Origin: Fluviicola sp. | GTDB taxonomy: Bacteria; Bacteroidota; Bacteroidia; Flavobacteriales_D; Crocinitomicaceae | Length of the DNA: 64,000 nt | Assembly: GCF_039596395.1 (NCBI RefSeq) | Contig: NZ_JBCNJT010000002.1 | Coordinates: 682,001-746,000 of the forward strand | Direction: 5' to 3' | Part shown: in pieces, positions 4,289 through 50,806 of the stretch | How positions within the stretch are numbered: the first letter of the stretch is position 1 | Layout of the letters: each line of letters begins with the position of its first letter | Translations under genes and position numbers: made by a program | The notes under the pieces: model-generated | What the model saw: only the letters and a program-made list of their open reading frames with translations | Databases searched by the model: none | Told to the model about the DNA's origin: nothing

Positions 4289-4324
4289 ACCAGTAGGGGT
4301 GTAAAATTTTACATCCCTACTGGT
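4289..4324. repeat. GTAGGG palindrome copy 2, AAAATTTT core
   Basis: A 36-base palindrome ACCAGTAGGG...CCCTACTGGT with core GTAAAATTTTAC. One position is a G/A difference that keeps a wobble pair. It lies between divergent genes, 85 bases upstream of the nucleotidyltransferase operon and 48 bases before the next plus-strand start, so here it cannot be a simple 3'-end terminator for a neighbour. Confidence 0.8.
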
Positions 4325-23957: not shown

Positions 23958-23993
23958 AAAAGTAGGGCCGTAAAATTTTACGGCCCTACTTTT
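23958..23993. repeat. GTAGGG palindrome copy 3, AAAATTTT core
   Basis: A perfect 36-base palindrome AAAAGTAGGGCCGT... with core AAAATTTT, 17 bases after the stop of the small membrane protein and followed by further T. It would work as a rho-independent terminator. A second family member begins 15 bases later. Confidence 0.85.
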
Positions 23994-24747: not shown

Positions 24748-24789
24748 AAAATCAGTAGGCGCGCGATTAATCGCGCGCCTACTGATTTT
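24748..24789. repeat. GTAGGC variant palindrome copy 5, ATTAAT core
   Basis: A perfect 42-base palindrome AAAATCAGTAGGCGCGCG... with core ATTAAT, ending in TTTT. It is the longest copy. The frame is GTAGGC/GCCTAC instead of GTAGGG/CCCTAC, with both arms changed together. It lies three bases after ispD and is a strong terminator candidate. Confidence 0.85.
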
Positions 24790-30024: not shown

Positions 30025-30054
30025 AGTAGGGCCGGAAAATTTTCCGGCCCTACT
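30025..30054. repeat. GTAGGG palindrome copy 6, AAAATTTT core
   Basis: A perfect 30-base palindrome AGTAGGGCCGGAAAA / TTTTCCGGCCCTACT. It lies between two minus-strand genes, 18 bases past the desaturase stop and 43 bases upstream of the CDF start, as expected for a terminator of the desaturase transcript. Confidence 0.85.
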
Positions 30055-39102: not shown

Positions 39103-39140
39103 AATAAGTAGGGGCGCGATTAATCGCGCCCCTACTTATT
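39103..39140. repeat. GTAGGG palindrome copy 8, ATTAAT core
   Basis: A perfect 38-base palindrome AATAAGTAGGGGCGCGATT and its complement. It lies between the DUF4286 start and the stop of the upstream MopE-repeat gene (both minus strand); the minus-strand direction reads it 19 bases after that stop. It fits a terminator of the T9SS protein transcript. Confidence 0.85.
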
Positions 39141-49713: not shown

Positions 49714-49741
49714 GTAGGGGCGAAAAATTTTTCGCCCCTAC
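49714..49741. repeat. GTAGGG palindrome copy 9, AAAAATTTTT core
   Basis: A perfect 28-base palindrome GTAGGGGCGAAAAA and its complement, 28 bases after the lepA stop. It is a likely lepA terminator, although its T run lies in the stem core and not after it. Confidence 0.8.
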
Positions 49742-49984: not shown

Positions 49985-50806
49985 ATGAAAAATCAAAAAA
50001 TTGAAGTTCAGGGTACACCCATAACTATTTATAAAAGCAATTCGGAAGATTATATCTCATTAACCGATATGCTCAAAGCAAAGGATGGTGAGTTTTTCAT
50101 TTCTGATTGGTTACGTAATAGAAATACAGTTGAGTTTTTGGGTGTTTGGGAATCGATAAATAATCCAACTTTTAATTATGGCGAATTCGCCATAATTAAA
50201 AGTCAGGCCGGTTTAAACAGCTATAAAATCAGTGTGAAAGAATGGGTTGAGAAAACAAATGCTATTGGATTAAAAGCAACTGCAGGCAGATACGGAGGAA
50301 CTTATGCTCATATAGATATAGCATTTGAATTTGGTATGTGGATCAGCGCCGAGTTTAAGGTATACTTAATTAAGGAATATAAACGTTTACAAACAGAGGA
50401 AAACAATCGTCTAAATCTGGATTGGAGTTTTCAACGAATGTTGGCAAAGGTCAATTACAAGATCCATACGGATGCTATCAAGGAAAACCTCATCCCATTG
50501 GAATTAAACAAGAATCAAACTTCCCTAATCTATGCAACTGAAGCAGATGTATTGAATATGGCGCTTTTTGGGATGACCGCCAAACAATGGCGGGATTCAA
50601 ATCCGGATGTAAAAGGAAATATCAGGGATCACGCTACCATTCAGCAATTAGTTGTCCTTTCTAATCTCGAAAGTATCAATTCCATGCTTATTGCTCAGGT
50701 TATGCCACAAAGTGAAAGATTGATTCAGCTGAACAGAATCGCTATCACGCAAATGAAATCGCTGATTGAAAATCAAAGCATAAAAACCCTTGGGAATAGC
50801 AAATAA
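49985..50806 (+). CDS. KilA-N domain protein
   Basis: A 273-residue protein with an N-terminal KilA-N domain (about 5-130: YISLTDMLKAKDGEFFISDWLRN, LGVWESINNP, AGLNSYKIS, YGGTYAHIDIAFEFGMWIS). KilA-N is a DNA-binding domain common in phages, prophages and mobile islands. The C-terminal half (FGMTAKQWRDSNPD, then ATIQQLVVLSNLESIN) is a conserved partner region found in Bacteroidota homologues, of unknown role. The gene is AT-rich against its surroundings and has no related phage genes beside it, so it looks like an isolated acquired gene. It contains a perfect 36-base palindrome in register with its codons (residues 62-73). Confidence 0.85.
   Translation: MKNQKIEVQGTPITIYKSNSEDYISLTDMLKAKDGEFFISDWLRNRNTVEFLGVWESINNPTFNYGEFAIIKSQAGLNSYKISVKEWVEKTNAIGLKATAGRYGGTYAHIDIAFEFGMWISAEFKVYLIKEYKRLQTEENNRLNLDWSFQRMLAKVNYKIHTDAIKENLIPLELNKNQTSLIYATEADVLNMALFGMTAKQWRDSNPDVKGNIRDHATIQQLVVLSNLESINSMLIAQVMPQSERLIQLNRIAITQMKSLIENQSIKTLGNSK
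50168..50203. repeat. Perfect 36-bp palindrome inside the KilA-N gene
   Basis: The arms ACTTTTAATTATGGCGAA and TTCGCCATAATTAAAAGT are exact reverse complements with no spacer. The palindrome covers exactly twelve codons in frame (residues 62-73, TFNYGEFAIIKS), so the opposite strand in the same register encodes the same peptide. It could extrude as a cruciform or serve as a symmetric protein-binding site. Confidence 0.95.

Follow-up and report, generated by a model that had tools for sequence, protein, structure and literature searches.

What is a perfect palindrome doing inside the coding sequence of a DNA-binding protein? The question is raised by a KilA-N domain gene in a 64,000-nucleotide stretch of Fluviicola sp. 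DNA (assembly GCF_039596395.1, contig NZ_JBCNJT010000002.1, positions 682,001 to 746,000; referred to below as the window). The encoded protein matched PF04383 (KilA-N) at 79.4 bits against a curated cut-off of 23.8 (E = 2e-22), and the profile of PDC-S22, a candidate defence family in PADLOC, covered residues 1-270 of its 273 (E = 5e-131). Within the gene, 18 bases are followed with no spacer (0 nucleotides) by their exact reverse complement, and the resulting 36 bp encode TFNYGEFAIIKS as codons 62-73 (Table 1). The original prediction, made from these letters, had described such an exact palindrome in codon register, and we confirmed it. It had also excluded chance as the origin, and this held: from the base composition of the window, perfect 36-bp palindromes are expected 1.5e-8 times per 822-bp gene and 8.4e-5 times per 4.6-Mb genome. 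The gene is the single match of its kind in that genome, where nothing besides the palindrome's own two arms matches the half-site with up to two mismatches.

To compare homologues, we selected them by peptide patterns lying outside the palindrome. The best 80, which were 67-82% identical and came from many phyla according to their record titles, together with the window gene, retained 13-18 of the 18 pairs over codons 62-73 in every case (81/81). Free drift of third codon positions, named beforehand as the sign of a coincidence, was not seen. Codons 63-72 were nearly frozen in these 81 genes, while synonymous codons varied in the rest of the gene: N64 was AAT in 80/80, G66 was GGC in 81/81, A69 was GCC in 81/81, I70 was ATA in 56/56, and I71 was ATT in 81/81. 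This freezing persisted in genes with a G+C content at third codon positions of up to 0.77, although codons within the palindrome did lean slightly toward host composition (correlation 0.46).

A wider set contained 146 near-full-length KilA-N genes, of which 120 were found by protein and 26 via the palindrome only; in the search for distant homologues, 54 of 395 genomes of the phylum matched, and 12 were examined of the 44 phage and plasmid records in which a homologue was found. A strict test for the internal palindrome was passed by 136 of the 146, and nine more had 13-15 of 16 pairs and a variant centre. The only gene without it (locus L205, from Latilactobacillus) aligns gap-free at that place and is also the exception among the phage and plasmid records (11/12 with the palindrome). 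Because 26 of the 146 came only through the palindrome, the fair figure for retention is 81/81, or 119/120 for the protein-found genes.

Could the amino acids and codon bias alone account for this? When codons were randomised synonymously in 121 regions, the observed mean was 14.69 of 16 pairs against 9.32 expected, and the highest of 400 random sets reached 9.74. This test used 121 of 122 rows, a second, misaligned stretch of L076 being dropped, and 86 of the 122 rows were from protein-found loci. Pairing was high at pairs 1-16 and near background at pair 17, so that the conserved unit is 32 bp. Because the palindrome is centred between two codons, every wobble base lies opposite the first position of a codon in the other arm; hence synonymous sites are frozen, and paired amino acid changes occur when the arms change. 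These results strongly support the conclusion that chance does not explain the palindrome and that it is important as DNA.

Distant homologues keep the palindrome with other arms and therefore another peptide: NYGEFAII, NSIEFDGI, NSLEFEGI, NYPEFGVI, NCTEFGTI, KPVEFDGF, KVVEFDHF, KRLEFQSF and others, with 33 left-arm types in the 146 genes. We followed pairs 1-16 by parsimony on a tree built without the palindrome columns, and counted 84 double changes from one Watson-Crick pair to another, 106 breaks, 14 restorations and 11 other events; the tree was restricted to genes that had 11 or more of the 16 pairs in register, and it therefore cannot measure loss of the palindrome. Double changes dominated at pairs 5, 6, 9 and 10, and breaks at pairs 2, 3, 14 and 16. 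Many of the double changes alter the protein sequence. The palindrome is maintained at the DNA level, with co-varying arms and a sharp 32-bp edge.

A palindrome with another core, seen near some KilA-N genes, proved to be the in-frame palindrome of a second family, the DinD-like (Bro-N) genes, in which it encodes D/N-H-F-x-x-x-x-K/E/D-M/T-V/I. At least 11 of 15 pairs were kept in 28/29 of these genes, with a mean of 12.7 against 8.7 expected and 9.3 in the highest of 400 randomised sets. L357 is without this palindrome, and L358 has none at that position. The dinD gene of E. coli K-12 MG1655 (L367, locus 1261-2085) carries the codon-register palindrome GACCATTTCGAGGAGATCCTCGATATGGTC, with 13 of 15 pairs. 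Homology between the KilA-N and DinD-like families was not detectable (hhalign probability 0.2). In the KilA-N structural model the encoded segment is a helix (residues 65-74; predicted local distance difference test score, pLDDT, 90-95), whereas in the DinD model it is mostly strand (67-74; pLDDT 86 for residues 61-70 and 67 for 71-80). Judging from these models, a common protein feature is therefore unlikely to explain both palindromes. Nor is the feature general among mobile single genes, since 26 RhuM (PF13310) and 24 ORF6N (PF10543) loci yielded only three and two palindromes, respectively, with 12 or more of 15 pairs; their positions are unrelated, and one of these (L386) belongs to an adjoining DinD-like gene. 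A RhuM-family gene is also present in the genome of the window (G000:C1:726051-726470).

The two families meet at several loci. KilA-N and DinD-like genes adjoin at G084:C43 and share loci L180, L191 and L277. KilA-N-type palindromes also adjoin genes of the Bro-N family, 84 bp before one at L137 (position 1327) and 24 bp after a DinD-like gene at L189 (position 1416). Conversely, DinD-type palindromes stand upstream of the KilA-N genes of L312 (-96), L022 (-34) and L030 (-56), where the upstream sequence of L030 reads like a piece of a DinD-like coding fragment.

Further copies of the KilA-N-type palindrome lie outside the coding sequence. Within 1 kb of the 146 KilA-N genes (139 kb scanned upstream and 131 kb downstream), we found 20 further CGAATTCG palindromes upstream, where 0.45 would be expected in random sequence, and one weak one downstream. 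Measured from the start codon as placed by alignment to the window protein, 17 of the 20 lay between -101 and -21. Excluding L337-L339, which had been fetched through the palindrome, left 15 upstream (12 at -101 to -21) versus one downstream. With palindromes of any centre, in 300 bp per side, the contrast was weaker, at 12 upstream (other palindrome types included) versus five downstream. L205, which has no internal palindrome, carries a copy at -37. At L026/L096 the upstream copy, at -143, terminates a KilA-N gene fragment (residues 2-72); the sequence around the remaining upstream copies, inspected by eye in the matching frame, did not clearly resemble a decayed gene.

An arm pattern ending in TTAATT occurred at 24 places in 14 genomes, one to four per genome: 20 in or before a KilA-N gene, two in degraded copies (L136, L138) and two elsewhere (L137, L139). 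A wider pattern likewise gave one to four places per genome among the matches listed, many of its two-mismatch matches being chance according to a reversed-pattern control. For the DinD type, a single copy was seen outside the DinD-like genes (L349, 126 bp downstream), and the viral contigs held no exact match to its pattern, so that, to date, only the KilA-N type is seen to cluster upstream of its own gene. A symmetric, co-varying element of 30-32 bp, kept at the DNA level, is thus present in two DNA-binding families, with extra copies concentrated before some KilA-N genes.

We favour the interpretation, to which we give a probability of about 0.45, that the palindrome is a cis-acting DNA site within the open reading frame (ORF) of a mobile DNA-binding protein, recognised and used for control by the protein encoded there. 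The KilA-N (or Bro-N) protein, probably a symmetric dimer, would recognise the site as a dyad or as an extruded cruciform, and once bound it might repress or otherwise control its own gene, or nucleate on the site. With the site inside the ORF, the gene would bring its own control along on moving to a phage, plasmid or chromosome where another promoter drives it. The arms vary freely but stay complementary, so what is recognised would be the dyad, an extruded hairpin, or the ends and centre, which do not vary. The original prediction had offered three meanings, i.e., the protein's own binding site, a cruciform, or the relic of a palindromic mobile element. The first fits best, in that extra copies cluster before the start codon, with the binding itself putative. 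The family-wide occurrence, the covariation of the arms and the palindrome of the DinD-like genes go beyond what that prediction had noticed.

Several observations weigh against control by the encoded protein. The upstream copies belong to only 14 of the 146 KilA-N genes, and the window gene has none; L205, which lacks the internal palindrome but has a copy at -37, is a single exception. At L337 the two upstream copies and the internal one represent three different arm types, which disfavours a single sequence-specific dimer unless it reads the structure or just the ends and centre, which are invariant. On the tree, single-sided breaks outnumber double changes. At pairs 8 and 14 (0.71 and 0.73) pairing is no better than the amino acids predict, and I/T and K/R replacements that break it are tolerated there; pairs 2, 5, 8, 11 and 14 lie close to expectation almost by construction, because second codon positions pair with each other. 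The dinD gene of E. coli is controlled by LexA. Finally, stand-alone copies in phages show no promoter preference, and in the related phages L229 and L435 the shared copy has 15 and 11 of 16 pairs, i.e., one of them pairs more weakly.

These phage copies bear on the main rival, a selfish dispersed palindrome of the kind known from repetitive extragenic palindromic (REP) sequences or Rickettsia palindromic elements (RPE). According to this explanation, a 24-32-bp hairpin with TTAA-type ends spreads between genomes, and one copy is a permanent part of KilA-N genes, which may provide its mobility function or depend on it. The pattern TTTWAW-N5-CGAATTCG-N5-WTWAAA found 109 stretches in viral contigs, against one for a control centre; 45 were in KilA-N genes or fragments, and of the others, outside KilA-N similarity, 46 had at least 3 of 5 arm pairs and 18 had fewer. 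Of the 64 matches without KilA-N similarity, we retained those in which four or all of the 5 arm pairs were complementary, which gave 25 distinct sites. Only six of these lay in ORFs, where 19.1 were expected (our own ORF calls, at least 80 amino acids); 14 lay between a start and a stop, two between two stops, one between two starts and two at a contig edge. Two of those within ORFs, L233 and L293, are in unrelated genes but in the same frame as in KilA-N. Tandem copies with 24-34 bp spacing also occur in viral contigs, and L229 carries a second tandem copy absent from L435, although its edges are not clean. The intergenic placement, the tandem copies and the differences between L229 and L435 favour some mobility or turnover, and disfavour a purely promoter-bound role.

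The comparisons made, however, yielded no clean empty site or target duplication. Searches of phage records for the empty sites of L264, L233, L247, L293 and L229, by DNA or protein, gave no match, and a search of the viral contigs for relatives gave only self-matches. For L189, one relative in its genus (G448) keeps the left gene and many keep the right gene; among those compared none keeps both, and no empty site was seen. One 32-mer found nothing in E. coli genomes, and a second had only 17-bp chance matches in plasmids. The suggestion that the palindrome is a mobile-element relic stands as far as the stand-alone phage copies go, but fails for the KilA-N copy, which is not an insertion relative to the gap-free L205. 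Moreover, the TTAATT-ended subclass has few places per genome, and selfish spread leaves unexplained both the complete retention at one codon position and the 20:1 upstream bias. As the primary explanation we consider it unlikely, though a serious contender.

A second alternative is quasi-palindrome correction, in which template switching during replication repairs one arm from the other, so that the symmetry is a mutational artefact and function resides only in the protein. This accounts for the homogenisation of the arms. It also suits the frequency on the tree of double changes that bypass the wobble pair, through which they could not have passed (A-T to T-A, G-C to C-G), and the occasional extension of the palindrome past pair 16, with matching amino acid changes, at L011, L063 and L110. 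Correction does not, however, predict an edge at pair 16 that is sharp throughout the family, clustering upstream of genes, or occurrence in two unrelated families, and the RhuM and ORF6N loci have no recurrent feature of this kind. We regard it as improbable.

Slightly less probable again is a recombination or attachment site, at which the palindrome would promote exchange among KilA-N genes, swapping domains and arms. Rapid turnover of the arms would fit, as would the degraded KilA-N copies at L178, L424 and L426, which have two palindromes 120 bp apart, the L178 copy reading as joined pieces of different KilA-N genes. A truncated KilA-N protein of 76 amino acids in a Mannheimia phage (gene 3927AP1_40, L198:2501-2731) stops a few codons past the palindrome, and residues 1-73 are matched by a PHROG family of 76 positions, phrog_32500, so that short KilA-N forms may recur. 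Of the fragmentary matches listed, however, a single one terminates between residues 62 and 73, and this one lies at a contig end; the 12 annotated contexts viewed differ in their neighbours and share no constant recombinase.

An mRNA hairpin controlling translation or decay is very unlikely. The sequence could fold about 200 nucleotides into the message, but mismatches outside the innermost three pairs comprised 48 G.U, 43 A.C and 27 others, and because G.U is not favoured the constraint looks to be at the DNA level. Synonymous changes that an RNA wobble pair would accept were as absent as incompatible ones (GGC to GGT 0/81, expected 0.50; GCC to GCT 0/81, expected 0.42), and the stand-alone phage copies are mostly intergenic, at no constant position relative to gene starts or stops. 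These results rule out the hairpin as the principal explanation. A coincidence of amino acid sequence and codon bias, for which only the compatibility of the amino acids with the palindrome speaks, can be dismissed in view of the frozen codons, the synonymous randomisation and the double changes on the tree.

Returning to the palindrome as a site used by the protein encoded around it, a broader generalisation is possible, although we consider it doubtful. Unrelated families of mobile DNA-binding proteins, at least the two considered here (KilA-N/PDC-S22 and DinD-like Bro-N), may each hold an ORF-fixed palindrome that is read as structure, i.e., a dyad or cruciform, and not as sequence. Only complementarity, ends and centre would then matter, and as the arms turned over the amino acids would be dragged along. 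The KilA-N site would in addition break free as a 24-32-bp element of its own, reaching positions upstream of these genes and the genomes of phages, and so make other DNA a target of the same protein. In these genes the amino acids that change together are determined by the symmetry of the DNA rather than by protein function, the compensatory substitutions altering the protein; palindrome pairing therefore confounds codon-based selection tests and protein co-evolution analyses applied to them. The system offers a test of how mobile regulators and candidate defence genes stay controlled after horizontal transfer, and the question can be addressed in E. coli K-12, because dinD there has the same kind of site.

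Table 1. Coordinates of the KilA-N gene and its palindrome, counted from the first nucleotide of the window
Feature	Position	Strand	Basis
KilA-N domain gene, 273 amino acids, PADLOC family PDC-S22	49985..50806	+	ORF and profile matches
KilA-N domain, residues 9-136	50009..50392	+	PF04383 match
Perfect gapless 36-bp palindrome, codons 62-73, centre at a codon boundary	50168..50203	.	Exact reverse complement
32-bp core TTTTAA-N6-CGAATTCG-N6'-TTAAAA, pairs 1-16, conserved in the family	50170..50201	.	Family pairing; background from pair 17

The window gene sits between lepA and an OmpA-like gene, both named by reading the ORFs. A Foldseek search gave DdrC as its best match (E = 4.5e-3), followed by APSES-type domains (Mbp1, PCG2), with no match at E 0.001, which is too weak to indicate a function. 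Residues 48-81 (window positions 50126-50227) gave a very weak match to the NCBIfam model of BriC, a biofilm peptide; at E = 0.033 and 14 bits, with the cut-off at 120, it is probably due to chance. The window also contains gapless palindromes of a different type, perfect or near-perfect, at 2330-2367, 4289-4324, 23958-23993, 24748-24789, 30025-30054, 39103-39140 and 49714-49741. These are intergenic, carry GTAGG close to one end (5') and CCTAC close to the other (3'), and resemble GTAG REPs. Three are perfect and 36-42 bp long, i.e., at least as long as the KilA-N palindrome, which weighs against its being unique.

A search of the literature on KilA-N, PDC-S22, CGAATTCG, dinD, in-frame palindromic elements and DdrC, with subscription papers largely outside it, found no apparent account of this feature among the abstracts listed, but several known systems resemble it in part. 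In Bacillus subtilis, a palindromic parS site lies in the coding sequence of spo0J, the gene of the ParB/Spo0J protein that binds it, and more copies lie elsewhere. The KilA-N palindrome is likewise in a coding sequence, with further copies elsewhere, and its binding by the encoded protein is putative. However, KilA-N and Bro-N proteins are unrelated to ParB (KilA-N was the sole domain found in the window protein), and parS is a nearly fixed sequence, whereas here the arms vary yet stay complementary. Intragenic operators of the lacO2 type are regulatory sites within coding sequence, with copies near the promoter. The site described here shares with them its dyad symmetry and its conservation at the DNA level within coding sequence, and may share the copies near the promoter, given 20 upstream against one downstream, though at only 14 of 146 genes; the pairing of regulator and site is putative; it differs in being kept, with compensatory amino acid changes, in homologues of 33-82% identity.

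PDC-S22, whose full profile the window gene matches, is listed as a candidate for phage defence; the available part of the source paper reports co-occurrence only (PMC12813430), and we found there no account of a palindrome. The GTAG and CGTC REPs, which are associated with RAYT (REP-associated tyrosine transposase) proteins, are short palindromes dispersed between genes, as described in one study (PMC3733652). They share with the present element this dispersal, variable stems and a link to a protein family. The present element, however, lacks the GTAG or CGTC tag (its ends are TTTTAA and TTAAAA), is sparse in each genome, as judged from the arm type counted, and has an intra-ORF copy that is nearly universal in the KilA-N family. 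RPE, which that study also mentions (PMC3733652), are palindromic DNA in frame within proteins, with dispersed copies. In-frame palindromic DNA is also what we observe, and copies in unrelated ORFs make up 6 of the 25 stand-alone sites, two of them in the KilA-N frame. Unlike RPE, however, the KilA-N palindrome is about 30 bp long, occupies one fixed codon position in a whole family across phyla, and is not an insertion when compared with the palindrome-free L205.
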